DNA from: Desulfohalovibrio reitneri
Lineage (GTDB): Bacteria; Desulfobacterota; Desulfovibrionia; Desulfovibrionales; Desulfovibrionaceae
Assembly: GCF_000711295.1 (NCBI RefSeq)
Contig: NZ_JOMJ01000003.1
Coordinates: 1,313,501 to 1,377,500 of the forward strand
Reading direction: 5' to 3'
DNA: 64,000 nt
Shown: positions 7,444 through 27,545 of the stretch, in pieces
How positions within the stretch are numbered: the first letter of the stretch is position 1
How the letters are laid out: each line of letters opens with the position of its first letter
Notes under the pieces: generated by a model
What the model saw: only the letters and a program-made list of their open reading frames with translations
Database searches by the model: none
What the model was told of the DNA's origin: nothing
Program-made: the position numbers and the translations under genes

Positions 7444-9627
7444 TTACGGGTGCCCGCCGCCGGGCTTCTTGCGTTCGGCCAGGGCCTCGGACATGTGACG
7501 GACCTTGACCTTGGAGCCGCGCTTGTCCAGGCCGCCGCGGATCTGCATGACGCAGCCCGGGCAGTCGGTGACCAGCAGGTCGGCCCCGGACTCCTCGATG
7601 TGGTCCAGCTTGGTCTTAAGGATCTGCGAGGAGATGCGGGGGAACTTCACCGAGTAGGTGCCGCCGAAGCCGCAACAGACTTCCTCTTCCTTCATCTCCA
7701 CGTAGTCGTAGCCGCCGGTGCCCAGCAGCTTGCGCGGGGCCTCGTGCACGCCCATGCCACGGCAGAGGTGGCAGGGGGAGTGGTAGGCGGCGCGGGGCCC
7801 GCCCTGCTCGAAGTGCTCCTTGCCCATTTCAAGCTCTTCCTGGACGAAGGAGGAGTAGTCGATGACCTTGTCAGCGAAGCGCTGGGCCAGCAGGTGCCAC
7901 TCCGGATCGTTCTTGAACAGGTTCGGGTAGCCCTTGAGGTGCGAGGCGCAGGAGGGGCAGTGGCAGATGATGTAGTCCAGCTCCGCCGGATCGAAGGCGC
8001 GGATGTTCTGCTTGGCCACGTCCCGCTCGGTGGTGGTCTCGCCCATCATCATCAGGGGCAGGCCGCAGCAAGTCTGGGACATGGGGTAGCGCACGTCCAC
8101 CCGTTGCCCCTTGAAGGTCTCCATGCCCGATTCCAGGTGCTCGGGGTACAGGAAGTCCTCGGCGCAGCCGCCGAAGAGCCCCACCACGTAGCGGGGATGC
8201 TCCACCTTCTCTCGCAGCTTGGGGAACTTGTCGCGGAAGGGGGTGTCCGCCAGCTTGGGAATCTCGCGGAAGCCGTGCTCCTTGGAGAGCAGCATGGGCA
8301 GGTGGCGCTGGTACTTGCCCTTGTGGTCGGCCGAGGTCTTGGTGCCGAACATCTTCTGGGCGTAGCGCGCGCTGCGCAGCAGGCCGTGGAAGAAGCGGCG
8401 GTTGGACATGGCCTTGGACAGCAGGCGGGATTCCAGCTCGTGCCCCTCCTCGTCCTGGATGCGGGCCAGCACTTCCTTGATCATGCGCGGCAGGTCGATG
8501 CCCGCGGCGCAGACCGCCTTGCAGGCCTGGCAGTTGATGCAGTTCTTGACCAGGTTCTTGGCCTTGTCCCGGCCGTGGAAGAAGTAGGTCAGGATGAGGC
8601 CGATGGCCCCGATATAGATGTGGCCGTACTGGTGCCCGCCCACCATGCGGTAGACCGGGCAGACGTTGGCGCAGGCGCCGCAGCGGATGCAGCGCAGGAC
8701 TTCCTTGAACAGGGGGTCCTTGGACATGGCGGTGCGGCCGTTGTCCAGGAAGACGATGTGGTAGGACTTCTTGTTGTCCTCCGCCGCCTTGCACTCGCTC
8801 TGGCCCTTGATCCAGGTGACGTAGGAGGTGATGGCCTGGCCGGTGGCGTTGCGCGGCAGGGCCTTGAGCACCCGCAGGGCGTCGTGCAGGCTCGGGGTCA
8901 GTTTCTCCAGCCCGGCCAGGGCCACGTGCACGCGCGGCAGGGTGGTCACCAGGCGGGCGTTGCCCTCGTTGGTCACCAGGCCGATGGCGCCGCTGTCGGC
9001 CAGGCAGAAGTTGGCCCCGGAAATGCCCATGTCCGCGTCAACGTAGCGCTGGCGCAGCTCGCGCCGGGCCACCTTGACCAGCTTCTCGACCTCGTTGGGC
9101 TGGTTGGAGCCGGTGACCTGGCTGAACAGTCCGGCCACCTGGTCGCGGGAGAGGTGGATGGCGGGCATGACCATGTGGGTCGGGCCCTCGTGGCGAAGCT
9201 GGATGATCCACTCGCCCAGGTCCGTCTCCGTGACCTGCAGGCCTTCGGCCTCCAGGTGGTGGTTGAGGAGCGTCTCCTCGGCGGTCATGGACTTGGACTT
9301 GACGATGTTTTTGCAGTTCTCCTCGCGGGCGATGTCCGCGATGATCTCGTTGGCCTCGGCGGCGGTGCGGGCGCGGTGCACCTTCACCCCGGCTGCCTCG
9401 GCGTTCTTCTTGAACTCCTGGTAGAGCTCCTCCATGTGGCTGACGGACTCGTCCTTGGCCTCGGCGATCTCGGCGATGAGCGCGGCCGCGTCCATGCCGG
9501 CGAAGGCCTTGGCCCGCCCCTGGGGGTAGGCGCGGGCGAAGTTGTCCATGGCCTTGCGCAGGAACTCGTTGTCCAGCGCCTGGCCGACCTCTTCCCTGTA
9601 TTCCTTCAGGTCGTGTGCTTTCTGCAT
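7444..9627 (-). CDS. L-lactate dehydrogenase Fe-S subunit (LutA-LutB-like fusion)
   Basis: This 727-residue protein is the last gene of the operon. The N-terminal half (about 60-300) is a LUD domain. It is followed by two ferredoxin-type motifs, CIRCGACANVCPVYRM and CINCQACKAVCAAGI. The C-terminal third carries two CCG-type cysteine domains (CCGLPLMMMG and CHLCRGMG...CCGFGGTYS). This combines B. subtilis LutB and LutA in one chain, as in the Desulfovibrio L-lactate dehydrogenase. With the LutC-like protein encoded just upstream it should oxidise L-lactate to pyruvate on the cytoplasmic side. The start at 9627 follows GGAGGAG; the open frame extends 55 codons further but runs into the lutC gene. 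Confidence 0.9.
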   Translation of the reverse strand: MQKAHDLKEYREEVGQALDNEFLRKAMDNFARAYPQGRAKAFAGMDAAALIAEIAEAKDESVSHMEELYQEFKKNAEAAGVKVHRARTAAEANEIIADIAREENCKNIVKSKSMTAEETLLNHHLEAEGLQVTETDLGEWIIQLRHEGPTHMVMPAIHLSRDQVAGLFSQVTGSNQPNEVEKLVKVARRELRQRYVDADMGISGANFCLADSGAIGLVTNEGNARLVTTLPRVHVALAGLEKLTPSLHDALRVLKALPRNATGQAITSYVTWIKGQSECKAAEDNKKSYHIVFLDNGRTAMSKDPLFKEVLRCIRCGACANVCPVYRMVGGHQYGHIYIGAIGLILTYFFHGRDKAKNLVKNCINCQACKAVCAAGIDLPRMIKEVLARIQDEEGHELESRLLSKAMSNRRFFHGLLRSARYAQKMFGTKTSADHKGKYQRHLPMLLSKEHGFREIPKLADTPFRDKFPKLREKVEHPRYVVGLFGGCAEDFLYPEHLESGMETFKGQRVDVRYPMSQTCCGLPLMMMGETTTERDVAKQNIRAFDPAELDYIICHCPSCASHLKGYPNLFKNDPEWHLLAQRFADKVIDYSSFVQEELEMGKEHFEQGGPRAAYHSPCHLCRGMGVHEAPRKLLGTGGYDYVEMKEEEVCCGFGGTYSVKFPRISSQILKTKLDHIEESGADLLVTDCPGCVMQIRGGLDKRGSKVKVRHMSEALAERKKPGGGHP

Positions 9628-9649
9628 ATCTCCTCCGATGGGAGTGGGG

Positions 9650-10282
9650 CTACTTGTCCAGGAGCAGGACGTGCATCTCCAGCGGGCCGTGCACGCCGAG
9701 GGCCAGCACCCGCTCGATGTCCGCCGTGCGGGACGCGCCGGTGATGAAGGCGGTGTAGGACGGGTCCTTGCCGATGAGCTTGGACACCACATCTTCCGCC
9801 TCGTAGGTGTTGGCGAACAGCTTGCTCTTGGGCACCACGGCCACGAAGATCTCGGAGATCATGGTGGCCAGGCGGGTCTCCTCGGAGTCGGAGTCGAGGA
9901 TGACCGTGCCGGTGTCGGCGATGCCGCCCTGGCACAGGGCCACGCCGATGTCTGTGCCCGCAAGGTGGTCGCGCATTCCCTCGTCGATGCAGACGAAGCC
10001 GTTGTCGTTGCACTTCTTCTTGAGGGAGCCGAAGTCCTTCTTGTTCAGGTTGGGGGCGGCCACCAGCTTGGCTTGCTTGGTCTCGCACAGCCCCTCGGCC
10101 TTCTTGGACAGGGCCTCCTCGCAGCCGGAGATCAGAAGCTTGCAGGCTTCCTTCTTGCCGCACAGATCGACCACGTAGTCGAATGCCTTGGCCATGGAGG
10201 GAACTTCCTCCACCACGCAGGAGACCGCTTCCGCCTTGGCGGTAAAGGTCCGCAGCATCTCGTCCTTGTCTTGTGTGCTCAT
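9650..10282 (-). CDS. lutC: LutC-like LUD-domain protein of L-lactate dehydrogenase
   Basis: This 210-residue cytoplasmic protein is a single LUD domain. The C-terminal signature TGASRTADIERVLALGVHGP is the hallmark of LutC/YkgG proteins, and ADTGTVIL precedes it. It works with the Fe-S fusion protein encoded 22 bases downstream in L-lactate oxidation. It starts after a TTTGGAG site and lies 15 bases after acetate kinase. Confidence 0.88.
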   Translation of the reverse strand: MSTQDKDEMLRTFTAKAEAVSCVVEEVPSMAKAFDYVVDLCGKKEACKLLISGCEEALSKKAEGLCETKQAKLVAAPNLNKKDFGSLKKKCNDNGFVCIDEGMRDHLAGTDIGVALCQGGIADTGTVILDSDSEETRLATMISEIFVAVVPKSKLFANTYEAEDVVSKLIGKDPSYTAFITGASRTADIERVLALGVHGPLEMHVLLLDK

Positions 10283-10297
10283 ACACGCTCCAAATGG

Positions 10298-11512
10298 TTA
10301 GGCCCGCAGCGCAGTGTAGGTCTGCCTGGCGATTTCCAGCTCTTCATTGGTGGGCACAACCCACACCTGAACCGGGGAATCGTCAGTGGAAATGCGGCCT
10401 GGCGCCTTGAAACGGCCGCCGCCGGCCTGGTTGCGTTCCGGATCCACATGGACGCCGAGGCCGGACAGCCCCTGCAGGGACAATTCCCGGACCCGGTCGT
10501 CGTTCTCTCCCACCCCGGCCGTGAAGACGATGGCGTCCACACGGCCCAATGCGGCGAAATAGCCGCCGAAATACTTGCGGTTGCGGTAGGCCAGCATCTC
10601 CAGGGCCAGGGCGGCGCGCTCGTCGCCCGAGGCTGCCTTATCGTGCACGTCGCGCAGGTCGTTGCTGCCGCAGATGCCCTTCAGCCCGGACTCCTTGTTC
10701 ACCAGCTGGTCCATCTCCTCCAGGGAGTAGCCCCGCTCGCGGGCCAGGTAGAAGAGGATGGCCGGGTCGAAGTCGCCGGTGCGGGTGCCCATGATCAGCC
10801 CCGCCAGCGGAGTCATGCCCAGCGAGGTGTCCACGCACCGCCCTCCGGCCACGGCGGCCATGGAGGCGCCGTTGCCCAGATGGGCGGAGATGAGGTTCAC
10901 GTCCTCCACCTCGCGGCCCATGAGCTTGCACAGCTCGCGGGAGACGTAGGCGTGGGAGGTGCCGTGGAACCCGTAGCGGCGCACCCCGGCCTGCTCGTAC
11001 AGCTCGTAGGGGAAGGCGTACATGTAGGCGTGCGGGGGCATGGTCTGGTGGAAGGCGGTGTCGAACACGGCCACCTGTTCGGCGTTCGGAATGAGCTTGC
11101 GGGCCGTCCGGATGCCGGTGAGGTTGGGCGGATTGTGCAGCGGGGCCAGGGGGATGTGGGCCTCGATGGCCTGCTCCACCTCGTCGTTGATGCTGGTGGG
11201 GGCGTGGAAGCGCTCCCCGCCGTGCACCACGCGGTGCCCAACGGCCTCGATCTCGTCGGTGGAGGCCAGCACGCCGTGGTCGGCGTGGGTCAGGGCCTCC
11301 ATGACCAGGCGCAGACCGGCGTCGTGGTCGGGCACGGCGTCCTCGCGCTTGAACTCCGCACCCTTCTCGTTTTCGTATTCGAACTTGCCGGACGACTCGC
11401 CGATGCGCTCCACCGCGCCCTTGGCGCGGACGGCGCCGCCCTCCCCGCCTTGCATGGCGAAGAATTGGAACTTGATGGACGAGCTGCCGGAGTTGAGTAC
11501 CAGAACGTTCAT
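10298..11512 (-). CDS. ackA: Acetate kinase
   Basis: This 404-residue enzyme is full length for the family. It starts MNVLVLNSGSSSIKF (phosphate-binding loop) and carries VVHGGERF, FDTAFHQTMP, YGFHGTSHAYV and HLGNGASMAAV. It makes ATP from acetyl phosphate and ADP, releasing acetate. It follows pta by 14 bases and has a strong AAGGAGAT site. It completes substrate-level phosphorylation in lactate oxidation. Confidence 0.97.
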   Translation of the reverse strand: MNVLVLNSGSSSIKFQFFAMQGGEGGAVRAKGAVERIGESSGKFEYENEKGAEFKREDAVPDHDAGLRLVMEALTHADHGVLASTDEIEAVGHRVVHGGERFHAPTSINDEVEQAIEAHIPLAPLHNPPNLTGIRTARKLIPNAEQVAVFDTAFHQTMPPHAYMYAFPYELYEQAGVRRYGFHGTSHAYVSRELCKLMGREVEDVNLISAHLGNGASMAAVAGGRCVDTSLGMTPLAGLIMGTRTGDFDPAILFYLARERGYSLEEMDQLVNKESGLKGICGSNDLRDVHDKAASGDERAALALEMLAYRNRKYFGGYFAALGRVDAIVFTAGVGENDDRVRELSLQGLSGLGVHVDPERNQAGGGRFKAPGRISTDDSPVQVWVVPTNEELEIARQTYTALRA

Positions 11513-11526
11513 GTCAGCCGATCTCC

Positions 11527-13641
11527 TTATTTACTCTGCTTTTCCGCCTGGGCCTGCACCGCGGTGATGGCCACCGTATTCACGATGTCCTCCACCACGC
11601 AGCCGCGCGAGAGGTCGTTGACCGGCTTGTTGAGGCCCTGCAGCACGGGGCCGATGGCCACCGCGCCCGCGGCCCGCTGGACCGCCTTGTAGGTGTTGTT
11701 GCCGGTATTGAGGTCCGGGAAGATAAAGACCGTGGCCTGCCCCGCCACCTTGGAGTTGGGCGCCTTGGTCTTGGCGGTCTCCGGGTCGATGGCCGCGTCG
11801 TACTGCAACGGCCCTTCCAGGAGCAGGTCCGGGGCCCGCTCCTTGGCGATGGCCGTGGCCTCCACCACCTTCTGCACGTCCGTGCCGGAGCCGGACTCGC
11901 CGGTGGAATAGGAGAGCATGGCCACGCGCGGCTCGATGCCGAATATCTCCGCCGTCTGGGCGGAGTTGATGGCGATCTCGGCCAGCTGCTGGGCGTTGGG
12001 GTTGGGGTTCACGGCGCAGTCGCCGAAGACCAGCACACGGTCGCGCAGGCACATGAAGAAGGCCGAGGAGACGATGGAGAAGCCCGGCTTGGTCTTCACG
12101 AACTCGAAGGCGGGACGGATGGTCTGGGCGGTGGTGGTCACCGAGCCCGAGACCATGCCGTCCGCGTCACCCAGGTGCACCATCATGGTGCCGAAGTAGG
12201 TGGGGTCGAGCATGCGGTCGGCCGCGTCCTCCAGGCGCACGCCCTTGTGCTGGCGGGCCTGGAAGTAGGTCTCGGCGTACTCCTCCTGCCGCTCGAAGGT
12301 GGATGGGTCCACAATGCGGGCGCCTGAGATATCCAGGCCGAACTGGGAGGCCTTGGAGTGCACCTCCTCCTCGCCGCCGACCAGGATGATGTCGGCCACC
12401 TTGCGGCGCAGCAGGATGTCCGTGGCCCGCAGCACCCGCTCGCTGGTGCCCTCGGGCAGCACGATGCGCTGGGGATCGGCCGCGGCCCGCTGCACCAGTC
12501 CGTACTCGAACATCTTCGGCGTCACCCGGCTGGAGCGCTCGGCCAGGATGCGGTCGGACAGCTCGCCCACGTCCACGTTGGACTCGAAGACGCCCAGGGC
12601 GGTGGCGATCTTCTTGGGATCGTCCGCCCCGATGCGTCCGTACAGCTCGTTGAGCTTCTGAGTGGTGAGGTGGGTGTGTTCCTTGACCGACACGATGGGC
12701 ACCGGCACGCCGGTCCAGCCTTCGATGAGCTTGTGCACCGCTGGCGGAGGCTGCAGCCCGCCGGTGAGCACCATGCCGGAGATGTCCGGGTACTGGGAGG
12801 AGAGCCTGGAGGCCAGGGAGGCCAGGATGATGTCCGAGCGGTCCCCGGGGGTGATGATCAGCGCGCCCTGGTCGATGTACTCCAGGAAGTTGCCGATCTG
12901 CATGGCCGCGATGAGGTACTCCTCGATGAGGGTCTCCATCTGGCCGTGCCCGTAGATCACCTGCCCCTTCAGCCACTTGGCCACGTCCTTCATGGTGGGG
13001 TTGCCCAGCGTCTCCACCTCGGGAATGGCGTAGGCCAAAAGCGGCTCCTTGCAGCGCACCTTGCACTGCAGGCTCTTGGCCAGGGCCTGGCAGTCGTCGC
13101 AGGCAAGCCGGTTGACGATGGCCGCCAGGATGTCGACCCCGGCTTCCTCCAGGGTCTCGATGGTGCCCTGGGCCAGGGACATGACCTCTTCCGCCGTCTT
13201 GCCGCGGCCGTTGGCCACGAAGAGCACGGGCGCGCCGAGGTTGGCGGCCATCTCCGCGTTGAGCTCGAACTCGAAGGCCGGGTCCTTGCCCAGGAAGTCG
13301 GTGCCTTCGCAGAGCACGAAGTCGTACTCCTGCTCCAGCTCCTTGAACTTGCCGAGCACGGTCTCCAGGAGCACGTCGCGGCGGCCGGTGTTGATCAGCT
13401 CCCGCGCTTCGCGCAGGTGCATGGCATAGGCCTGCTCGTACTCCTGATCCAGGTTGAAGGCCTTGCGGATCAGCTCGATGTCGTGGTCCCGGCCTTCCTC
13501 CTCGGCGGCTCCGGCGGTGATGACCGGCCGGAAAATGGCCGGCCGACCCACCTTGCGCAGGATCTCCTGCATGACTCCGAGGACGATGGCCGATTTGCCG
13601 CTGCGGCTTTCGGTGGCGGTTATGTAGAGGCTGCGGGACAT
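11527..13641 (-). CDS. pta: Phosphate acetyltransferase (long form)
   Basis: This 704-residue long-form Pta has three parts. There is an N-terminal P-loop domain (SLYITATESRSGKSAIVLG, about 1-220, BioD-like), a central DRTGG domain (about 225-345) and the C-terminal catalytic PTA domain (about 375-700) with VLPEGTSERVL, GMVSGSVTTTAQT and MLSYSTGESGSG. It converts acetyl-CoA and phosphate to acetyl phosphate for acetate kinase. The N-terminal and DRTGG parts are known in E. coli to mediate allosteric control. It starts after GAGGGGAG, 25 bases downstream of the Fe-S subunit gene. Confidence 0.96.
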   Translation of the reverse strand: MSRSLYITATESRSGKSAIVLGVMQEILRKVGRPAIFRPVITAGAAEEEGRDHDIELIRKAFNLDQEYEQAYAMHLREARELINTGRRDVLLETVLGKFKELEQEYDFVLCEGTDFLGKDPAFEFELNAEMAANLGAPVLFVANGRGKTAEEVMSLAQGTIETLEEAGVDILAAIVNRLACDDCQALAKSLQCKVRCKEPLLAYAIPEVETLGNPTMKDVAKWLKGQVIYGHGQMETLIEEYLIAAMQIGNFLEYIDQGALIITPGDRSDIILASLASRLSSQYPDISGMVLTGGLQPPPAVHKLIEGWTGVPVPIVSVKEHTHLTTQKLNELYGRIGADDPKKIATALGVFESNVDVGELSDRILAERSSRVTPKMFEYGLVQRAAADPQRIVLPEGTSERVLRATDILLRRKVADIILVGGEEEVHSKASQFGLDISGARIVDPSTFERQEEYAETYFQARQHKGVRLEDAADRMLDPTYFGTMMVHLGDADGMVSGSVTTTAQTIRPAFEFVKTKPGFSIVSSAFFMCLRDRVLVFGDCAVNPNPNAQQLAEIAINSAQTAEIFGIEPRVAMLSYSTGESGSGTDVQKVVEATAIAKERAPDLLLEGPLQYDAAIDPETAKTKAPNSKVAGQATVFIFPDLNTGNNTYKAVQRAAGAVAIGPVLQGLNKPVNDLSRGCVVEDIVNTVAITAVQAQAEKQSK

Positions 13642-13666
13642 TGACTCCCCTCGGCTGGTGTTGCGG

Positions 13667-14947
13667 TTACTTCAGGCCCTCGGCGTAGACCTCGACGACG
13701 TGGCGCACCGGGGTATTCTCCCCCTTCTGGGAGAGCATGTCGGAGATCTGCATCATGCAGGCCGGACAGGAGGTGGCCGCCAACTCGGCGCCGCTTTTGC
13801 CGACGTTCTCGGCCTTGCGCTGGCCGATGGTGCGGGACAGGTCGTAGTGCTCCAGGGAGAAGGAGCCGCCGCAGCCGCAGCAGGTGGCCGCCTCGGGCAT
13901 CTCCGTGAACTCCACGCCGCGGCTCGCCTTGAGCACGTTGCGGGGCTGGGCGGTGACCTTCAGCGAGTTCCGCAGGTGGCAGGGGTCGTGGTAGGTGACC
14001 TTCTTGCCGCCGTGGGCCTCGCCCGGCTCCACGCCGAGCACGTCCACCAGGAACTGGGAGATGTCCATGACCTTGCCGCTCATGGCCTTGGCCCGTTCCC
14101 GGCGGGTGTCGTCCTCCACCATCATGGGCCACACGTCCTTGAGCGTGGCCGCGCAGGTGGCGCACACAGTGATAATGTAATCGAAGTCTCCCTTTTCGAA
14201 AAGGGAGAGGTTGGTTTCCACCATCTTCTCGAAGGACTTCCGCTCGCCCGAGGACAGGGCGGGGATTCCGCAACAGGCCTGTCCGTGGGGCAGGTAGATC
14301 CCCACGCCGTGGTGGCGAAGCACCTTGAGGGTCGCCTCGGCCACGCGGGGATAGACCTTGTCCGTGACGCAGCCGGGGAAGAAGGCCACGCGCATCCCGG
14401 AGGAGCCCCGGGGCTCGTTCAGCTCGCCCTGCGTCTTGTGGAAGGGCTTGTCCGCCAGGTTGGGATAGTGGCGGTCCCCCAGGGGCGAGGCGAAGCGGGC
14501 GCAGGACGTGCCCATGACCTCGCTGGCCTTCTTGGAGAATACGCCCTGGAAGCGCGAGCCCAGCCCGACGATCTTGTCGAACAGCTGGGGCCGGGTCATG
14601 AGTTGCTGGAAGATGACCTTCTTGGCGGGGGGCAGCCCCATGTACCCGGTGAGAATGGCCCGGGCCTTGAGGAAGATGTCCACCACCTTCACCCCTGAGG
14701 GGCAAGCCGCCTGGCAGGAACCGCACAGCAGGCAGCGGTCCAGGCGCTCCTTGACCCCCTTGGGATCCTTGATCATCTCGTGGGCCAGCCCGTCCAGCAG
14801 GGCCAGCTTGCCCCGGGCCACGTCGGCCTCCCGCCCGGTCTGGGCGAAGACCGGGCACTGCGCCTGGCACATGCCGCAGCGCATGCAGCCGACGAGTTCG
14901 TCGTCCAGCTCGCCAAGCAGTTTGATGAGTTCCTGAATCTCGGCCAT
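13667..14947 (-). CDS. D-lactate dehydrogenase Fe-S subunit (GlcF-like)
   Basis: This 426-residue protein has two N-terminal [4Fe-4S] motifs, CMRCGMCQAQCPVF and CLLCGSCQAACPSG. Two C-terminal CCG domains follow (CCGIPALSSG; CHLRNSLKV...CCGCGGSFSLEHYD). It should take electrons from the FAD subunit encoded 8 bases upstream and pass them to the membrane pool or a carrier. The order FAD subunit then Fe-S subunit matches the Desulfovibrio D-lactate dehydrogenase. Glycolate oxidase GlcF is the other member of the family, but the operon makes lactate the likely substrate. It starts after AGGAGGGG. Confidence 0.9.
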   Translation of the reverse strand: MAEIQELIKLLGELDDELVGCMRCGMCQAQCPVFAQTGREADVARGKLALLDGLAHEMIKDPKGVKERLDRCLLCGSCQAACPSGVKVVDIFLKARAILTGYMGLPPAKKVIFQQLMTRPQLFDKIVGLGSRFQGVFSKKASEVMGTSCARFASPLGDRHYPNLADKPFHKTQGELNEPRGSSGMRVAFFPGCVTDKVYPRVAEATLKVLRHHGVGIYLPHGQACCGIPALSSGERKSFEKMVETNLSLFEKGDFDYIITVCATCAATLKDVWPMMVEDDTRRERAKAMSGKVMDISQFLVDVLGVEPGEAHGGKKVTYHDPCHLRNSLKVTAQPRNVLKASRGVEFTEMPEAATCCGCGGSFSLEHYDLSRTIGQRKAENVGKSGAELAATSCPACMMQISDMLSQKGENTPVRHVVEVYAEGLK

Positions 14948-14955
14948 GTCCCCTC

Positions 14956-16341
14956 CTAGGTCCCGATGATCTTGCCGGGATTGAGGATGTTGTTGGGGTC
15001 GAGGGCGGCCTTCATCTTACGGCAGTAGGCGATGGTGGCCGGAGAGGTCTCCTTCTCCATCCACTGCGACTTGGCGATGCCGATGCCGTGCTCGCCGGAG
15101 AGGGTGCCGCCCATGCCCAGGGCTTCCTCGAAGATGGCGTTGACGGCCTCTTCCACGCGGTGCCACTCGTCCTTGTCGCGCTTGTCGGTCATGATGGTGG
15201 GGTGGAGGTTGCCGTCGCCCGCGTGGCCGAAGGTGCCGATGGTCAGCTTGTACTCGTCGGCGATGCGGCCCAGGGCGGTCATCATGTCCGGCATCTTGGA
15301 GCGGGGGACGGTGGCGTCCTCAAGCACGCAGGTGGGCCGGAAGTTGGCCAGGGCGGGCAGCGCGTCGCGCCGGGCCTGCCAGAGCTGGCCCTTGTGCTCG
15401 GCGTCGCGGGCGATCTCAATGGAACGCACGCCCTCTTCCTTGCAGATTTTCTCGATCTTCTCGGCGTCCTCCTTGACCTGCACGGGGTGGCCGTCCACCT
15501 CGATGAGCAGCAGGGCGGCCGCGTCGGTGGGCAGCCCGGCGCCGCGGAAGCCCTCCACGGTGCGGATGGTCACGTTGTCCATGAACTCCAGGGTGCAGGG
15601 CACGATCTTATTGCGGATGATGGAGGCCACGGTGCGGGAGGCGTCCTGCACATCGTCGAACACGGCCATCATGGCCTGGGAGGCCTGCGGCGGCGGGACG
15701 AGCTTGAAGATGAGCTTGTTGAAAACGCCCAGGGTGCCCTCGGAGGCGGACATCAGGCCGGGCAGGTTGTACCCGGTGACGCACTTCACGGTGCGGGAGC
15801 CGGAAGTGACCTGCTCGCCGTCCACGTCGAAGAAGTCGATGCCCATGAGGTAGTCCTTGGTCACGCCGTACTTCAGGCCCCGCAGGCCACCGGCGTTTTC
15901 GGCCACGTTGCCGCCCAGGGTGGACACGGCCTGGGAGCCGGGGTCCGGGGGATAGAAGAGGCCGCGGGAGGCCACTTCGGCGGCGAACTTGGCTGTCACC
16001 ACGCCCGGCTGGCAGACGGCGTAGAGGTCTTCCTCGTTGATCTCCAGCACCTGGTTCAGGGCGCCGGTGAGAATGACCACGCCGCCCTGCTCGGGAATGG
16101 TGCCTCCGGAGAGGTTGGTTCCGGCGCCGCGCACCGTCAGGGGCAGGCCCTTCTGGTTGCAGGCGCGGGTCACGCGGGCGAGCTGGTCCTCGGTGGTGGG
16201 GCGCACGGCCAGGGCCGGGGCCTTGGAGGGCAGCACCGCCGAATCGTAGGAATAGGCGTGCAGATCGGCCTCGTGGGTCATGACGTTGTCCGCCCCGACG
16301 ATGGCCTCGAAATCCTTGGCGAGGGTGGTGGCGTCGGCCAT
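14956..16341 (-). CDS. FAD-linked D-lactate dehydrogenase (GlcD/Dld-II-like)
   Basis: This 461-residue flavoprotein has an N-terminal PCMH-type FAD-binding domain (about 35-215) with VRGAGTNLSGG and PDPGSQAVSTLGGNVAENAGG. It has a C-terminal FAD-oxidase domain with GTFGHAGDGNLHP and SGEHGIGIAKSQWM. It should oxidise D-lactate (possibly also glycolate) to pyruvate and pass electrons to the GlcF-like partner. It starts after AAGGAGAT, downstream of the permease and behind a conspicuous hairpin. Confidence 0.92.
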   Translation of the reverse strand: MADATTLAKDFEAIVGADNVMTHEADLHAYSYDSAVLPSKAPALAVRPTTEDQLARVTRACNQKGLPLTVRGAGTNLSGGTIPEQGGVVILTGALNQVLEINEEDLYAVCQPGVVTAKFAAEVASRGLFYPPDPGSQAVSTLGGNVAENAGGLRGLKYGVTKDYLMGIDFFDVDGEQVTSGSRTVKCVTGYNLPGLMSASEGTLGVFNKLIFKLVPPPQASQAMMAVFDDVQDASRTVASIIRNKIVPCTLEFMDNVTIRTVEGFRGAGLPTDAAALLLIEVDGHPVQVKEDAEKIEKICKEEGVRSIEIARDAEHKGQLWQARRDALPALANFRPTCVLEDATVPRSKMPDMMTALGRIADEYKLTIGTFGHAGDGNLHPTIMTDKRDKDEWHRVEEAVNAIFEEALGMGGTLSGEHGIGIAKSQWMEKETSPATIAYCRKMKAALDPNNILNPGKIIGT

Positions 16342-16362
16342 GGAGAATCTCCTTATTTGAAA

Positions 16363-16391
16363 GCGGCGGCCCCCGGTGCGGGAGCCGCCGC
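16363..16391 (-). terminator. Intra-operon hairpin after the permease gene
   Basis: GCGGCGGC (16363-16370) pairs with GCCGCCGC (16384-16391), with further G/C pairing towards the loop. On the minus strand it falls between permease and dehydrogenase and is followed only by TTTC. It looks like an mRNA-stabilising or partial-termination element rather than a full terminator. Confidence 0.45.
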
Positions 16392-16408
16392 GTTGACGTT
16401 TCGTTCGT

Positions 16409-18121
16409 TTAGAACAGGTTCGGCATGAACACGTAGCTCATCAGCGTGACCATCAGGCCCACGACCAGTCCGTAGAGCAGGAAGGGCCAGAAGGTCTTAC
16501 GGATGATGGCGCCTTCCTGGCCGGACAGGCCGACCACGGCGCAGACCGCCACGATGTTGTGGATGCAGATCATGTTGCCGAAGGCGCCGCCAACGGCCTG
16601 GGCCGCGACGATGACCTGGTGCGGCAGGTCAAGCTGGCTGGCCATGCCCCACTGGAACTCGGCGAACAGCAGGTCGGAGACCGTGTTGGAGCCGGTGATG
16701 AAGGACCCCAGGCCGCCGACGAAGCCGGCGAAGATGGGCCACGCCTGGCCGGCGATGGAGGCCACGAAGTCGGCCATGGCCAGCGGCATGGAGGGGTAGC
16801 TGTTGGGGTTGAGGGCCGCGTCGCCGATGCCGGAGCCCCGGAAGATGGAGACCAGGGCCACCGCGAAGAACAGCGCGATGGTGGGGTTCTTCATCTTCTT
16901 GAAGGAGTCGCTCCAGGCGCGGGAGACGTTGCCGCCCTTCATGCCGTGGATGCCCACGGTGAGCAGGGCCACCAGGATGAAGGGAATGGTGCCCGGCAGG
17001 TAGAGGTAGGCGATGGCCGCGTTAACCGACTCGTAGCCCAGGATGTTGTTGAAGGGGATCTTCTGGGCGGCCAGGAAGCCCTTCAGGCCGAGCTCGGGGA
17101 TGCGGGTGATGACCAGGATGATACCGATGAGGACGTAGGGCATCCAGGCGCGGAACTGGGACATGTGCGCCTCGAACTTGCAGTCCTCCTCGGGGCGGAC
17201 GGTGCCGACCCAGTCCTCTTCCCACTTGGACTGGGGACCGAAGGACCAGGTGTCCTTGGGCACGGCGATGCCGCGGCGGGCGCCCCAGACCACCACGCCC
17301 AGACCGATCAGGCCGCCGATGAGGGACGGGAACTCCGGTCCCACGAACCAGGCGAAGAACAGATAGGGCACGATGAAGGCCACGGCGGCGAAGACGCAGA
17401 ACTTCCAGGCGCGGAAGCCGGGCATCCAGGAGCGCTCGGGGCCGAAGAAGCGGGAGATGAAGCCCAGCATGAAGATGGGCAGGATGATGATCATGGGCAG
17501 GTGCATGATGGTCGACCACTGCCCGATGAGGTGGTTGAAGGCCTCCATGGAGTCGAAGTTGACCCCGGCGCCGCCGGTGGCCACGGCCTGCTCGACAAGG
17601 CCGCGCAGGAACTTCAGGCCCAGGATGACGGGCGTGCCCACCGCGCCGAAGGTCACGGGGAAGGAGTTGAAGACCAGGCAGACCACGGCCGCGGCCAGCG
17701 GGGGGAAGCCCAGCGCCAGCAGCAGCGGGGCCGCCAGGGCCGCCGGGGTGCCGAAGCCGGCCGCGCCCTCGATGAAGGCCGCGAACAGGTAGCCGATGAT
17801 GATGGCCTGCACGCGCGGGTCGGCGGAGATGTTCTGGAAACCGCACTGAATGGTTTCCATGCCGCCCGAGTATTTCAGGGTGTGCAGGATGAGAATCGCC
17901 CCGAAGACGATGATCAGAATCGATATTGCCGTTACCACGCCTTGCAGTGAAAGCGCCGCCACGTAGCCGGCGGGAAGCTGCCAGATCAGGATGCCGCCCA
18001 GGGCGCAGGCCGCCCAGGCGAGCGGCATGGCCTTGGTGGCCGGCCAGCGCATCCCCACCATGAGGACCAGCGCCAGCGCGATGGGGATGAAGGCGATAAG
18101 GGCCAACAGTCCGATTGACAT
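16409..18121 (-). CDS. lldP: Lactate permease (LctP family)
   Basis: This 570-residue inner-membrane protein has about 13 hydrophobic segments. Family hallmarks are [24 protein letters not shown] and the C-terminal [19 protein letters not shown] and [15 protein letters not shown]. It imports lactate with protons or sodium. I start at ATG 18121 ([11 protein letters not shown]), nine bases after AAAGGAG; the GTG two codons upstream is too close to that site. It lies 42 bases downstream of the PFOR gene. Confidence 0.95.
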
Positions 18122-18163
18122 TGTCACACGCTCCTTTTCACGTTTGCCGGGTTTCCTTCCGCC

Positions 18164-21922
<3,759 letters not shown>

Positions 21923-21923
21923 T

Positions 21924-21940
21924 TACAAATTCGATGCCGA
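21924..21940 (-). promoter_or_regulatory. Candidate sigma-54 promoter of the lactate oxidation operon
   Basis: The minus strand reads TCGGCATCGAATTTGTA: GG of the -24 element, ten bases, then GT where consensus has GC, with TTG intact. It is imperfect on its own. Its position, about 95 bp below the nearest activator palindrome, is within one base of the geometry at the FMN dehydrogenase operon. The predicted leader to the PFOR start is about 90 bases. Confidence 0.5.
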
Positions 21941-22011: not shown

Positions 22012-22096
22012 TGTCTGAAAAAGCGGACAATCTTCCCCGCTCTCGCATCCGAAAAAACGGACAGCAGCCGTACGAGCTTGTCCGGAAATCAGGACG
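22012..22096 (-). promoter_or_regulatory. Three phased activator palindromes (TGTCCG-N6-CGGACA)
   Basis: Three 18-bp sites lie at 22012-22029 (TGTCTG..CGGACA), 22046-22063 (CATCCG..CGGACA) and 22079-22096 (TGTCCG..AGGACG), each with a six-base A-rich centre. Centres are 34 and 33 bp apart, about three helical turns. The outermost overlaps the stop codon of the response-regulator gene. This is the layout expected for upstream activating sequences of a sigma-54 enhancer-binding protein. Confidence 0.7.
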
Positions 22097-23522
22097 CGGA
22101 ATGGAGGTCGTGCTTCTTGAGCAGGGCGTAGAGATGGGAGCGGGACAGGCCGGAAAGCTCAAGCATCCTGGCCACATCTCCGTCTGTTTCCTCCAGGAGG
22201 CGCGAGAGGTAGGCTCGTTCCGCCAGTATCTTGTGTTGCTTGAGGCTCGGCAAGCCGCTCTTCAGGGTATCTTCCGGTGGTATGCCGGGGAGGTCGCCGG
22301 GCGACCCGGCGGATTCCTCCGCCGTATCTTCTCCGTCTACAGGGTCGAAGCGGGCCTTGGCCGCCTTGATGCGCAGGTCGGGGGGCAGGTGCATGGCGTA
22401 CAGGGTGCGCTCGCGGCCGGAGGCCACCACCGCCCGCTCCAGTACGTTGAACAGCTCGCGCACATTGCCGGGCCAGTCGTGGGCGGTCAGCACCTCGAAG
22501 AAGTCCGCGGAGAAGCCCTTGGCGGGCAGGCCGTGCTCCCCGCACAGCTCGTCCACCCGCTCCACGGCCAGGGTCTTGAGGTCCTCGCCACGCTCCCGCA
22601 GGGGCGGCAGGCGCAGGTGGACCGTTTTCAGCCGAAAGAGCAGGTCGGAACGGAAGGCCCCCTCCTCCACCATCAACTCCAGGTCCCGGTTGGTGGCCGA
22701 AATGAGGCGGAAGTCCGAGGCCTCCTCCTTGGTGGCCCCCACCGGCCGGTACCGCTTTTCCTGCAGCACGCGCAAAAGCGATTTCTGCACACCTCCGGGC
22801 AGTTCGCCCACCTCGTCCAGAAAGAGGGTGCCCCCGTGGGCCACGGCCACCAAGCCCTTGCGGTCCTCGGTGGCGCCGGTGAAGGAGCCCTTGCGGTGGC
22901 CGAAAAGGGTGGACTCCACCAGAGTGTCGGTCAGGGAGGCGCAGTCCACCACCACGAAGGGCTTGGCCGCCCTGGCGGAGTTGGTGTGGATGGTGCGGGC
23001 GAAAAGCTCCTTGCCGGAGCCGGTCTCGCCGGTGACGAGCACGGCCGCGTCCGAAGCCGAGGCCGTGGCCACCTGGTCGAAGCAGGCCCGCATGGCCGGG
23101 GAGGAGCCCTTGATGCGGCCCAGTTCCAGGGCGCGGCGTCCGCCGCTGCGCCGCTTTTCCTCGCGGTAGCGCGCCGCCCGGTCCAGGGAAAGGGATATCT
23201 GTTTGATGGAGGCGGGCTTGACCAGATAGTCCCAGACCCCGCCCTGGATGGCCAGCTCCGCGCCGTCCGGGTCGCCCCGGCCGGTGAGGATGATGACCTC
23301 AGGCGGGTCGTCCAGCCCCTTGATGTCGGACATGAGGTCCAGGCCGTTGCCGTCGGGCAGACGCAGGTCCAGAAGGACCACGTCGAACCCGCCGCCGTCC
23401 AGTTTGGCGCGCGCCTCGGACAAATCGGCCGCCTGGCCGCATTCGAAGCCCCGGCGGCGGCCCAGGCTGCACATGGTGTCGCGGACCTCGGGCTCATCAT
23501 CCACGATCAGGATGCGGGCCAT
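22089..23522 (-). CDS. Sigma-54-dependent response regulator of lactate oxidation
   Basis: This is a 477-residue NtrC-type activator. It has a receiver domain (about 1-120; acidic pair in ILIVDDEPE, phospho-acceptor Asp in VVLLDLRLPDG) and an AAA+ domain (about 140-380; Walker A GETGSGKELF, sigma-54-contact loop GSFTGA, Walker B GGTLFLDEVGE). A Fis-type helix-turn-helix sits at the C-terminus (DVARMLELSGLSRSHLYALL). The loop has Ser in place of the usual Ala of GAFTGA. It lies directly upstream of the operon it probably activates, as in Desulfovibrio, and overlaps the end of its sensor-kinase gene by 26 bases. Confidence 0.93.
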   Translation of the reverse strand: MARILIVDDEPEVRDTMCSLGRRRGFECGQAADLSEARAKLDGGGFDVVLLDLRLPDGNGLDLMSDIKGLDDPPEVIILTGRGDPDGAELAIQGGVWDYLVKPASIKQISLSLDRAARYREEKRRSGGRRALELGRIKGSSPAMRACFDQVATASASDAAVLVTGETGSGKELFARTIHTNSARAAKPFVVVDCASLTDTLVESTLFGHRKGSFTGATEDRKGLVAVAHGGTLFLDEVGELPGGVQKSLLRVLQEKRYRPVGATKEEASDFRLISATNRDLELMVEEGAFRSDLLFRLKTVHLRLPPLRERGEDLKTLAVERVDELCGEHGLPAKGFSADFFEVLTAHDWPGNVRELFNVLERAVVASGRERTLYAMHLPPDLRIKAAKARFDPVDGEDTAEESAGSPGDLPGIPPEDTLKSGLPSLKQHKILAERAYLSRLLEETDGDVARMLELSGLSRSHLYALLKKHDLHSAS

Positions 23523-26243
23523 GCGCCCTCCCCGCCGCTTCCGGCTTCAGGGGAGTCCCCCCGCCCTCGCGCCCGCCGTCGCCCAGGGCGCGGCAGACCG
23601 CCTCGGCCAGCTCCTGCCCGGTGAAGGGCTTGGCCAGCACTTTGACCACGTTGTCCACCCCCTCGGCCGCCTCGAATGCCTGGGCCCGGCCAGAGATCAG
23701 CAGCACGGGCAGCCCCGGCCAGCGGCGGCCGATGTCGCCGGCCAGCTGCACGCCGCTCTTGCCGGGCATGTCGAAGTCGGTGATGACCAGATCGAAACTC
23801 CGCTCCTCCAGCCGCCGCAGGGCCTCGTCCGCGCCCTCGGCGGGCACGGCCTCGAAGCCCAGCCCCCGCAGCACGCGCGGGTGGTGGCCAGCTGGTCCTG
23901 GTCGTCCTCCACGAAAAGCAGGCTGGCCCCGGACGCGCCCGTGGCCCGGGGCGATTCCACGGCCTCGCCCTCGGCGGCGGGCACGGCCGGGAGTATGATC
24001 TCGAAGACCGCGCCGTCGCCGGGTCCGCCCGCCAGCCGCACCGCCCCGCCATGGTTCTTGACCACGCCCAGCACCACGGACAGCCCCAGGCCGGTGCCCT
24101 CGTGCTTCCCCTTGGTGGTGAAGAAGGGGTCGAATATCTTGTCCGCGATGGCCGGGTCGATGCCCGGGCCGGTGTCGGCCACGGTGAGTTTGAGCGCGGG
24201 ACCCGCGCGCATGCGCAGAAGCCCGGCCTCCTCGCAGTCCGGCTCCATGCGGGAAAGGGAAACGGTCAGCCGCCCGCCGGTCTCCCGCATGGCCTGGAAG
24301 GCGTTGGTGCAGAGATTCATGAGCACCTGGTAGATCTGGGTGGGGTCCACCATGACCCGTCCGGCTTCCTCGGCCTCCGGGTCCACCTGGGCGCTGACCT
24401 CGATGTTGCGCGGCAGGGAGGGGGTGAGCAGCCCGGCGGTCTCGCGCACCAGTTCGGCCAGATTGGTGGGCCGAAAGCCCTCCTGCGAGGGCCGGGAGAA
24501 GGCCATGATCTGCTCCACAAGCCGCTTGCCGCGCTGGGCCGCCTTGAGCACGCGGCCAAGGTCGCGGCCCGCTTCGCTCTCCTCGTCCACATCCATCATG
24601 GCCAGCTCGGTGGAGTTGACGATGGAGGTCAGGATATTGTTAAAATCGTGCGCCACGCCGCCGGCCAGGGCGCCGATGGCCTCCATCTTCTGCGACTGCA
24701 GCAGCTGCCGCTCCAGGTTGATCTCGCGGGTGACGTTCTCCGCCGTGGACAGGGTGCCCACTGCCTTGCCCTGGGCGTCGTACAGCGGAACCTTGTTGAC
24801 CTCCAGCCAGACCGTTTCGCCTCCCTCCTCCTGGCGCGGGTCGCGCAGGGAGACGCGGGCGCGCAGCTTGGACTTCTGGGTGCGCAGCACCTCGCGATCC
24901 ATGGCCGCGGCCCATTCAGTGAAGCGGCCCGACTTCATGAACTGCTCGTCGGAGCGGCGGATGACGTCGGCCGGGTCTGACAGCCCGAAGAACTCGGTGA
25001 AGGTGCGATTGGCCCCCAGGTAGCGCTGGTCGGCGTCCTTCCAGCACACCAGCTGGGGGATGGTGTCCATGAGGATCTCAAGAAAGGAGAGCTGCCCCTT
25101 GAGCCGCTCCTCGATGCGCCGGCGGCGCAGGATGTTCATGATGAGCAGCGCGGACAGGGCGGTGAGCAGGATGAAGGCCACCAGGCCCGTCCAGAAAAGC
25201 TCCTTGGAAATCTCGTAGAAGGCCTTGGGCGCGTTGACGATGGTGGAGCCCTCGGGAAGCTTGGTTTCCGGCACCCGCCAGCGTTGCAGCTCGTTGTAGT
25301 CGAAGAGGTATGGGTTGTCCGCCTCGCGCACCACCGGGATGGAGGACGGGGCCTGGCCGCGCAGCAACCGCGCCGCCAGGCCGCCGGTCAGGCGACCGTG
25401 GTCCACGCCGGAAATCAGTTTGCCGCCCACGCTGCCGTGGCCCAGCAGGAAGGCCCAGGTGGAGTAGACCGGCCTGCCGGAGACCTCGGCCACCCTGGCC
25501 TGCACTTCGCCCGGATCGAAGAAGCGCCCCCCGTGTTCGTCGCTCTCCCGCTGGAAGAAGGGGATGTAGAATACGATGTCACCGGAACCGAGATTGCGAA
25601 GGTCCTCAAGCATGGATTCCAGGGAGCCGTGCAGGTACTCGAAATCCAGGCTGCCGCCCAACTGCTCCTCGGCCTGCCGCACCTGGGCGCGGATGGCCCG
25701 GCCCGTGACCGAGTCGTCGCCCACCACCACCACGCGGGAGGTGCCGGGGTGCAGCCTGCGGGCCACCCGCAGGGTGGCGGCCACATCGGTGTTCTCCAGC
25801 ACGCCGGTTGCGGGCAGTCCCTGGATGCGGGCGGGGTCGAAGTCGTTCACTCCGCAGAATACCAGTGGAGCCTCGGGAAAGAGTTGTTCCCGGTGGTCCA
25901 GGGCGAAATCGAAGGCGTAGTTGTCCGAGGCCACCACCAGATCGAAGGTTTGGTCGCGGTACTTGGCTTCCAGCCAGCGGAAGAGTTCTCCCTCCGCCTG
26001 CTGCCCGTGCCGTTTGGTGTCCAGGTACTCGAGGAACAGGTCGGCGGGCACTCCGCGTTCGGCCAGTTCCAGCCGCAGCCCCTCCACGATGTTGTCCGAC
26101 CAAGCGTAGCCGTCGTGGTAGGAGTTGAGCACCAGGACGCTGCGCTTGGCGCCGGACGCGGGCGGCGCTTCGGACGCGCTGGCCGGGAAATGGAGGAGGA
26201 CGGCGGCCAGCAGCAGGACCGCGAGGGTGGTGGCTCGGTGCAT
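23497..26243 (-). CDS. Hybrid sensor histidine kinase (frameshift in C-terminal receiver)
   Basis: The protein has a signal peptide (MHRATTLAVLLLAAVLLHF), then a periplasmic substrate-binding-like sensor domain (about 30-310, KRSVLVLNSYHDGYAWSDNI). A membrane helix follows (about 342-365), a PAS domain (about 380-500), HisKA with GGVAHDFNNIL (His near 530) and HATPase (ADTGPGIDP, GTGLGLSVV). A receiver domain begins LLFVEDDQDQ near 774. Around 23880, in a run of alternating C/G (cgcgcgtg), the frame shifts: the rest of the receiver (LRGLGFEAVPAEG...LVITDFDMPGKSG) continues in another frame to 23497. One inserted base restores a full receiver. Without it the chain ends at 23697 with the kinase intact. 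It is the cognate partner of the sigma-54 regulator, and the periplasmic domain may sense lactate or a related acid. Confidence 0.8.
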
Positions 26244-26300
26244 GATCGGGTTTTTCTCCGGGGGCGGGACGCGTGGGCCCCGCCCCTGCTCCATACTGCC

Positions 26301-27332
26301 TCAGCCCTTCCCCGCAAGGGGGTCCCCGGCCAGGACCGAGGCGGGCACCGCGGCGGCCGAGGCCGCGCCGGTGAGGAGCATGGCCTGCACCATCTGGGTG
26401 CGGTAGGCCTCCAGTTCCCCGGCCACGGCCTCCCGGCCGCCACCGAACACCGCCGTCACCAGGGGGCGGCCCACCAGCACGCCGTGCGCGCCCAGGGCCA
26501 GCAGTTTGAGCGCGTCCGCGCCGGAGCGCACCGCGCCGTCGGCGAATACGGTCATGTCCGAGCCCACCCTGCGGGCGATGCGGGGCAGCACCTCGGCCAC
26601 GCCGGGAGTGTGGTCCAGCACCCGGCCGCCGTGGTTGGAGACCACGATGCCGGCGCACCCGGCGTCGCGGGCGGCCTCGGCCTCGTCCACGGTCATGATG
26701 CCCTTGGCCAAAAAGGGCAGCCCGGTGGAGCGCACCAGTTCCTCCAGCTCGGCCGGAGTCTTGGGGCCCACTGGCTGGCCGAACTTGGCCATGGTGATGA
26801 GGCCCGCGCCGTCAACGTCCACGCCCACAGCGGTGGCTCCGGCCTCTTCCGCGCGGTGCAGGCGGGCCTTGATCTCGTCCTGGGAGCGGGGCTTGATGAC
26901 GGCCACCCCGCCGCCGTGCTCGCGGATGGCCGCCAGCCCGGAGTCGAACATGGCCGGGTCGGCCCCGTCGCCGGTCCAGCCCAGGGACCCGGCGTCCCCG
27001 CAGCCGCCGACGATGGCGGAGATGAACTCCTCCTCGCCCATGCCGCCGCCCATGTTGTAGGACACCCCGGTCATGGGGGCGGCCTGGATGGGCGTGGCGA
27101 ACTCCTTGCCGAAAAAGGAGGCGGAGGTTTCCACCTCGGTCACGCCGTGCAGGGTGCGCATGGCCAGGCGCACTTCGGCCAGCGCCTGGTGGTTGGCGGT
27201 GAAGGCGCTGCCGGTCCCGGCCCCGCCCATGCCGGGGACTTCCCCGGAGCAGGCCACGCCGTGGCAGACCTTGCAGACCCTGCAGAACCCTTTCAGCCGC
27301 TCGCGGGCGGCATCGCGCGTCGCCTTGTCCAT
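26301..27332 (-). CDS. FMN-dependent alpha-hydroxy-acid dehydrogenase with N-terminal Cys motif
   Basis: This 343-residue TIM-barrel flavoenzyme belongs to the lactate/glycolate oxidase family. Family motifs are SNHGGRVLDHTPG (catalytic His and Arg) and FADGAVRSGADALKLLALGA (FMN phosphate loop). The N-terminus carries FCRVCKVCHGVACSG, a C-x2-C-x2-C-x4-C pattern absent from the aerobic enzymes but seen in anaerobe members. It could bind an Fe-S cluster or zinc. I start at 27332 because AAAGGAGAG precedes it. It is the first gene of an operon with the kinase and regulator and has its own sigma-54 promoter and activator site. L-lactate is a plausible substrate; another 2-hydroxy acid is possible. 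Confidence 0.85.
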   Translation of the reverse strand: MDKATRDAARERLKGFCRVCKVCHGVACSGEVPGMGGAGTGSAFTANHQALAEVRLAMRTLHGVTEVETSASFFGKEFATPIQAAPMTGVSYNMGGGMGEEEFISAIVGGCGDAGSLGWTGDGADPAMFDSGLAAIREHGGGVAVIKPRSQDEIKARLHRAEEAGATAVGVDVDGAGLITMAKFGQPVGPKTPAELEELVRSTGLPFLAKGIMTVDEAEAARDAGCAGIVVSNHGGRVLDHTPGVAEVLPRIARRVGSDMTVFADGAVRSGADALKLLALGAHGVLVGRPLVTAVFGGGREAVAGELEAYRTQMVQAMLLTGAASAAAVPASVLAGDPLAGKG

Positions 27333-27380
27333 GTCGTCTCTCCTTTGCCTGATTGCAAACAAACTTCGAACCGAAGTCTA

Positions 27381-27397
27381 AGCATGGATCGGGCCAA
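27381..27397 (-). promoter_or_regulatory. Sigma-54 promoter of the FMN dehydrogenase/kinase/regulator operon
   Basis: The minus strand reads TTGGCCCGATCCATGCT, matching TTGGCACG-N4-TTGCT at all but two positions with exact GG-N10-GC spacing. The predicted start site is near 27370, about 38 bases before the ATG. A perfect inverted repeat ACTTCG-AAC-CGAAGT (27363-27377) overlaps that start site. Confidence 0.75.
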
Positions 27398-27469
27398 GAG
27401 GGAATGCCCGCTCCAACATGCCGCCGTTTCATCGTTTCCTTGCGGCGGCCGCATCGCTTTGCCGTAGAC

Positions 27470-27487
27470 TGTCCGATTTTTCGGACA
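27470..27487. promoter_or_regulatory. Activator palindrome TGTCCG-N6-CGGACA upstream of the FMN dehydrogenase
   Basis: TGTCCGATTTTTCGGACA has perfect 7-bp arms and the same 18-bp form as the three sites in front of the PFOR gene. Its centre is 96 bp above the -12 element of the sigma-54 promoter. It also sits about 67 bp upstream of the divergent PilZ gene. Confidence 0.72.
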
Positions 27488-27545
27488 AGGACAACCCCCT
27501 TGCCCCGCCCGGCTTTCCGCGTACAATGCCCAAGCAGGGGAAGAT

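Follow-up and report, generated by a model that had tools for sequence, protein, structure and literature searches.

Genes at the locus

The 64-kb stretch of DNA analysed here (hereafter the window) carries a gene for an FMN-dependent alpha-hydroxy-acid dehydrogenase-like protein, followed by the sensor kinase gene lurS and the NtrC-type response regulator gene lurR, the latter two adjoining each other beside a lactate operon that begins with por (Table 1). The remaining part of this operon comprises genes for a lactate permease, an FAD-linked oxidase-type dehydrogenase, a CCG protein, pta, ack, a LUD protein and LdhH. The start of the FMN gene was taken at the ATG at 27332, with AAAGGAGAG in front, and 6 bases separate its stop from the lurS ATG (26294). 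The receiver and AAA+ domains of LurR were identified by Pfam, and its HTH, which has no Pfam match, by a conserved motif. The genome has one Sigma54_DBD match (8.6e-63), representing rpoN.

Table 1. Genes and predicted control elements, with positions in the window
Feature	Positions	Strand	Sequence or form	Remarks
LurR box upstream of the FMN dehydrogenase-lurS-lurR operon	27470..27487		TGTCCGATTTTTCGGACA	perfect palindrome; pattern match
Predicted sigma-54 -24/-12 element of the same operon	27381..27397	minus	TTGGCCCGATCCATGCT, GG-N10-GC	
FMN-dependent alpha-hydroxy-acid dehydrogenase-like protein	26301..27332	minus		Pfam FMN_dh 1.7e-58
lurS, sensor kinase	23697..26294	minus		PAS, HisKA, HATPase
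lurR, NtrC-type response regulator	22089..23522	minus		receiver, AAA+ with GSFTGA, C-terminal HTH
Possible third por-side LurR box	22079..22096			2 mismatches; overlaps the end of lurR
Second por-side LurR box	22046..22063			imperfect, 2 mismatches; 128.5 bp to -12
LurR box nearest the por promoter	22012..22029		TGTCTGAAAAAGCGGACA	0 mismatches; centre 94.5 bp from -12
Predicted sigma-54 element of por	21924..21940	minus	TCGGCATCGAATTTGTA, GG-N10-GT	
por, pyruvate:ferredoxin oxidoreductase	18164..21820	minus		first gene of the lactate operon
Remaining lactate operon	7444..18127	minus		

A preliminary description of this locus had called the FMN enzyme a third lactate-type dehydrogenase. It is related to lactate and hydroxyacid oxidases; the translation contains the active-site motif SNHGGR, which aligns to L-lactate oxidase, with the likeness to this group of oxidases residing mainly in the C-terminal half (residues 198-350). 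However, the protein stays below both NCBIfam LldD cut-offs (119.4 vs 376 bits and 106.6 vs 550), and naming it a lactate dehydrogenase would be premature.

The C-terminal receiver domain of LurS (23697-23880, minus strand) continues in another frame in the assembly, and is in frame in five of five relatives read. The divergent plus-strand gene at 27546-28271 also appears to shift frame part-way, so indel errors may be present in this stretch of the assembly; the frame change in lurS could be either an assembly error or a real loss.

Predicted control elements upstream of the FMN dehydrogenase gene

The palindrome and the minus-strand GG-N10-GC element reported earlier in front of the FMN dehydrogenase gene were both confirmed at their positions. 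The distances of 96 bp for this operon and 95 bp for por proved right to rounding, since 95.5 bp were measured from the centre of the box to the -12 G of TTGGCCCGATCCATGCT and 94.5 bp at por. The claim that the two operons share an activator site and a sigma-54 promoter class stands as well: the site matches the LurR motif (PMC6456213, in part), and site and element recur together in relatives.

Scored with a matrix derived from the 63 por-side sites of the family, the box upstream of the FMN gene reaches 28.6 of a maximum of 29.7 bits. In the 64-kb window, TGTCCGANNNNTCGGACA occurs four times with up to two mismatches (0.27 expected), and the pattern TGTCYR-N6-YRGACA is matched without mismatch only by this box and the por-proximal one, while its matches with one or two mismatches are uninformative alone (48 matches in all vs 18.3 expected). 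Throughout the genome (3.39 Mb), the A/T-spacer pattern TGTCYR-W6-YRGACA with up to two mismatches returned nine sites per strand vs two for a reversed control. The sole mismatch-free and the sole one-mismatch site of this search are the lurS-operon box and the por box, a third site with two mismatches adjoins the latter, and the lurS-operon box is the best match to the LurR motif in the whole genome. When any spacer is allowed, TGTCCGA-N4-TCGGACA has one further perfect site elsewhere in the genome, with a G+C-rich spacer. Scanning the ORF lists by eye around three other sites of this genome (L147, L148, L151), no lactate gene was noticed.

Taken alone, the -24/-12 element is not significant, with 28 such matches in the window vs 31 expected; an equally good element at 92-110 bp from the box was found in 8 of 3000 flank shuffles. 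Transcription of the FMN dehydrogenase operon would be expected to start near 27371. NtrC-type regulators can also repress their own sigma-70 promoters, as at glnA of E. coli. LurR itself has been suggested as a repressor of DVU3284 (PMC3333781, in part). Accordingly, LurR could act here as a repressor, or have no effect, with the operon using an unseen sigma-70 promoter. Such a scenario appears very improbable, given that the box lies about 100 bp upstream, that no minus-strand sigma-70-like match was found in 27300-27600, and that the -24/-12 element recurs at activator distance.

Upstream of por the LurR motif is present at three sites, one of them free of mismatches and two with two mismatches; the latter two do not figure in the preliminary description. 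The sigma-54 element of por was found where it had been described, at 21940-21924. Labelled there as weaker, it shares its GG-N10-GT form with the por promoter of D. vulgaris, whose start has been mapped (PMC4481167, PMC6456213, both in part).

LurR boxes across the family

An even sample of 119 genomes of the family was searched with LurR, which gave a match at 1e-95 in 81, and the best locus was taken from the 64 genomes with E <=1e-144, the window included, with neighbouring genes mapped by tblastn. In 42 of the 64 loci, boxes with up to one mismatch were found in the interval separating lurR from the next lactate gene (63 sites, vs a mean of 0.47 in shuffles). In front of lurS, or of an FMN gene preceding it, 9 of 59 regions had such boxes (11 sites, vs a mean of 0.57 in shuffles), and seven loci were accepted as box-bearing: the window, G024 (L077), G010 (L078), G050 (L079), G043 (L118), G002 (L130) and G044 (L133). 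The remaining 52 of the 59 regions contain no accepted LurR box. Of the nine regions, L090 was set aside because por is divergent there, and L127 because its box is weak (12.5 bits, at 507 bp from lurS). A match in L121, scoring 16.3 bits at a distance of 760 bp, was likewise discarded as weak or distant.

The FMN_dh enzyme is widespread (102 of the 119 genomes), yet directly precedes lurS in only 3 of the 64 loci (the window, G010 and G050). In four others it is divergent from lurS (L106, L134, L136 and, at a distance, L080), and no accepted box lies between the divergent, adjoining FMN_dh and lurS genes of g41 (L106, L134, L136). Twelve named FMN_dh loci (L065-L076, some of them short) hold no lurS, lurR or lactate operon gene detectable by tblastn at 1e-15. 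A LurR-like match upstream of FMN_dh in the Solidesulfovibrio-type loci L071 and L073, and also in L014, was rejected: some 360-410 bp separate it from the gene, by eye it appears to fall inside a coding sequence of the opposite strand, and no sigma-54 element was seen at the right distance.

Other arrangements were also observed in front of lurS. Sigma-54-like elements are found there without a recognisable LurR box in g5 (L093, L095, L099, L124; AGGCCCGCCTTTTGCA type) and g8 (L120, L128; CGGTACGTTTCTTGTA); in these groups, expression of lurSR may depend on another activator or on a sigma-70 promoter (TTGTATAG). In g30 (L083, L086, L088, L107, L113), no LurS match was found beside LurR though lactate genes follow, and the kinase may have been replaced or become very divergent.

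A LurR tree covering the 64 loci places the seven box-bearing ones in two groups, g1+g25+g11 (100/99) and g3+g44 (98/97). The starred branches force two changes of state, and none of 500 shuffles was as clustered. The joining of g11 with g1-g25 is a join between long branches and, according to a program warning, possibly false, in which case more than two changes are possible. A single gain of the box followed by many losses is also a possible history.

Distance between box and promoter

Spacing was analysed on the por side in the 35 of 64 loci that have an element with at most one mismatch (two in the case of the window) and, 40-220 bp away, a box. The box lies at 90-112 bp in 29 of these 35 loci, with 11 spacings at 92.5-98.5 (mean 96.1), 18 at 104.5-109.5 (mean 106.0) and none between, a two-class description that is post hoc and covers only boxes at 90-112 bp. 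The classes differ by about 10 bp, which suggests one helical turn; the periodicity fit is not sharp, with no peak at 10.5 and the best R (0.64) at 10.0.

The window belongs to the shorter class at both promoters. Their agreement within one base, part of the coincidence of site, promoter class and spacing that the preliminary description had considered unlikely by chance, is real, but constitutes weak evidence, as in 36% of random pairs from the 29 por-side loci the spacings differ by no more than 1 bp. The two-class geometry of the whole family thus largely explains the match between the two spacings.

Predicted promoters of the box-bearing relatives

The group of g1, g25 and g11 consists of four loci, which are all the genomes of these genera in the sample. 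A sigma-54-like element lies 95.5-107.5 bp below the box in six of the seven accepted lurS-side loci: at 95.5 bp in the window, 106.5 in G024, 103.5 in G010, 107.5 in G050 and 105.5 in both g3 genomes, with second boxes at 149.5 bp in G010 and 151.5 bp in G050. In the two g3 genomes, AGTCTGA(A/T)TTTTCGGACA stands above TGGAACGTTTTTTGTA in front of lurS, without a preceding FMN gene. In L118, by start-codon reading, the box falls within lurS, near its 5' end, with a sigma-54-like TGGAACATTTCTTGTA above it, and its geometry is therefore not the common one.

The GG-N10-GC elements of the window (TTGGCCCGATCCATGCT), G024 (CTGGTCCAATACATGCT), G010 (CGGGTCCGATATTTGCT) and G050 (CGGGACCGATACTTGCT) have the core GGnCC(G/A)AT in common, and those of the last three are each three mismatches away from the consensus. 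When all 18-mers of the leaders were compared, with boxes masked and 60 shuffles as a control, the promoter ranked first between the window and G024 (15/18; 2 of 60 shuffles as good) and between G010 and G050 (16/18; 0 of 60). It ranked first between the window and G050 no better than in shuffles (19/60) and tied for first between G024 and G050 (50/60), while other stretches ranked first in the pairs of G010 with the window (22/60) and with G024 (15/18; 1/60). The comparison thus supports the promoter in two of the six pairs.

G024, whose LurR is the closest to that of the window (76%), lacks an FMN_dh match at 1e-20. A stub, MDKAARGAALERCNGGLRRQVRNGAACSGRALGAG, is nevertheless present between the G024 promoter and lurS; it aligns to the start of the enzyme at 19 of 36 residues (E 1e-6, 2.8 kb searched). 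The box of G024 is perfect, with box and element intact. The simplest reading would be loss of the enzyme gene by deletion, with the promoter retained for lurSR. That a perfect site and promoter persist where the FMN gene survives only as a stub suggests that it is the control of lurSR itself which has been maintained.

These relatives also bear on the possibility that the palindrome serves the divergent plus-strand gene at 27546, with the GG-N10-GC element being fortuitous. A sigma-70-like match at 27500-27527, just past the palindrome, would fit this explanation, as would the chance-level frequency of the -24/-12 element alone in the window. In g11 and g3, however, the box is preceded by the end of an ORF read in the direction of lurS, which means that no divergent gene is required to account for the box, and the box stays with lurS as the neighbours change. 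Likewise, the element scan of the window returned no plus-strand sigma-54 match at 27488-27700. We therefore give this explanation very little weight.

LurR as the probable regulator of its own operon

In regard to the protein expected to act at these sites, the GSFTGA motif of LurR was seen in 20 of the 64 loci and is listed as activation-competent (PMC4641369, in part). Within the recognition helix SRSHxY of its HTH, S, S, H and Y are identical in 62 of the 64 loci, the other two being gapped, and R in 57. Recognition helices of a similar kind occur in two other regulators of the genome (SRARFYALLKK and SRARLYELLQK), so LurR is the presumed binder. LurR sites of D. vulgaris can also be occupied by NrfR, with a motif common to both regulators (PMC6456213, in part). 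A paralogous NtrC-type regulator could thus be the main occupant of the site in vivo, with the operon answering another signal. This seems improbable to us, as the helix, S-R/K-S-H-x-Y where aligned (62 of 64 loci), is conserved in the box-bearing loci, the por and lurS promoters bear the same sites, and the only sites of the A/T-spacer pattern with no or one mismatch in the genome are located at this locus.

The best explanation for 27381-27487 is, with high probability, that it constitutes the control region of a positively autoregulated LurR operon. According to this model, LurS would sense lactate, or a product arising from its use, and phosphorylate LurR, as in the D. vulgaris system from which these roles are taken, and LurR would bind the palindrome, as the identity of the motif implies. 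Looping of the DNA would then bring the AAA+ domain of LurR to the sigma-54 RNA polymerase waiting at 27397-27381, which it would remodel, and the FMN dehydrogenase gene, lurS and lurR would be transcribed as one unit. The additional LurS and LurR would in turn activate the same type of promoter before por, giving the loop its presumed positive sign.

Several observations argue for autoregulation. The palindrome matches the LurR motif and is its best match genome-wide; a box with GG-N10-GC stands before the lurS operon in all four loci of g1, g25 and g11; and a second group (g3) has the same design without the FMN gene, while G024 keeps box and element despite its FMN stub. Furthermore, the lurS-side spacings fall within the por-side range, LurR has GSFTGA and a largely conserved HTH helix, rpoN is present, and the FMN stop and the lurS ATG are only 6 bases apart. 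On the other hand, the lurS operon of the window has one box vs up to three at por, 52 of the 59 regions have no box, and lurSR is absent among the D. vulgaris targets (listed in sources available in part). The case is also weakened by the three mismatches in the G024, G010 and G050 elements and by the mixed outcome of the leader comparison. On the whole, autoregulation of LurSR via sigma-54 appears well supported by comparison, so that the positive autoregulation of kinase and regulator proposed in the preliminary description is supported by inference, site and element recurring in the three relatives nearest to the window as well as in a second, distinct group.

With regard to the history of this control, we slightly favour a scenario in which control by LurR of its own operon arose on at least two occasions (in g1-g25-g11 and in g3-g44) through a box and a sigma-54 element, mostly at a spacing of about 96 or 106 bp. 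A graded lactate response would there have become feedback-amplified, and the promoter of G024 would have outlived the enzyme gene. If LurR autoregulation is true, the response to lactate could be self-amplifying, and possibly bistable, in some genera but, going by the listed targets, not in D. vulgaris, a contrast open to direct testing. It would represent a lineage-specific feedback branch added to the known LurR system and kept in a few related genera. The two spacing classes, together with the surviving G024 promoter, would offer a natural series for studying the evolution of enhancer-promoter geometry.

Comparison with known LurR systems

Judged by its gene content, the set from 27332 to LdhH corresponds to the arrangement of lurS, lurR and lactate operon known from Desulfovibrio. 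LurSR and DVU3025-3033 (luo) of D. vulgaris share with it the type of regulator, the position of the kinase beside the lactate operon and the motif (PMC6456213, PMC4481167, PMC3333781, all in part). The region upstream of por in D. vulgaris Hildenborough contains three 16-bp sites to which LurR binds, ATCCGCTTTTTCAGAC, GTCCGCTTTTCAAGAC and GTCCACTTTTTCAGAC, with the motif shown by gel shift, e.g. for GTCCACTTTTTCAGAC. The por sigma-54 promoter there is ATTGGCACATTTCTTGTTA (PMC6456213, in part), from which transcription starts 12 bp below -12 (PMC4481167, in part). The three sites before por and the GT at -12 of its promoter thus have their counterparts in the window. Deletion of lurR in D. vulgaris lowers the expression of por, ack and DVU2451 on lactate (PMC6456213, in part).

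The new feature relative to this system is the site before lurR's own operon. The LurR targets given for D. vulgaris in the available parts of PMC4641369 and PMC3333781 are DVU3025-3033, DVU2451 and DVU3284, with lurSR absent, whereas here a LurR site and a sigma-54 element precede lurSR, with the FMN dehydrogenase gene first. No report of LurR autoregulation was found in the open-licence literature searched, and the main text of the D. vulgaris LurR study (PMC6456213) does not contain the word FMN. DVU2784 of D. vulgaris, likened here by description, also belongs to the FMN-dependent family with HGGR and is well expressed on lactate, but, unlike the FMN gene of the window, it is not placed with lurSR in the available part of that description (PMC4481167). 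Regulators acting on their own operons are, on the other hand, familiar from the same organism, as DVU1419, DVU0539, DVU0946 and DVU3305 bind upstream of theirs (PMC3333781, in part), although these are other regulators with other targets.
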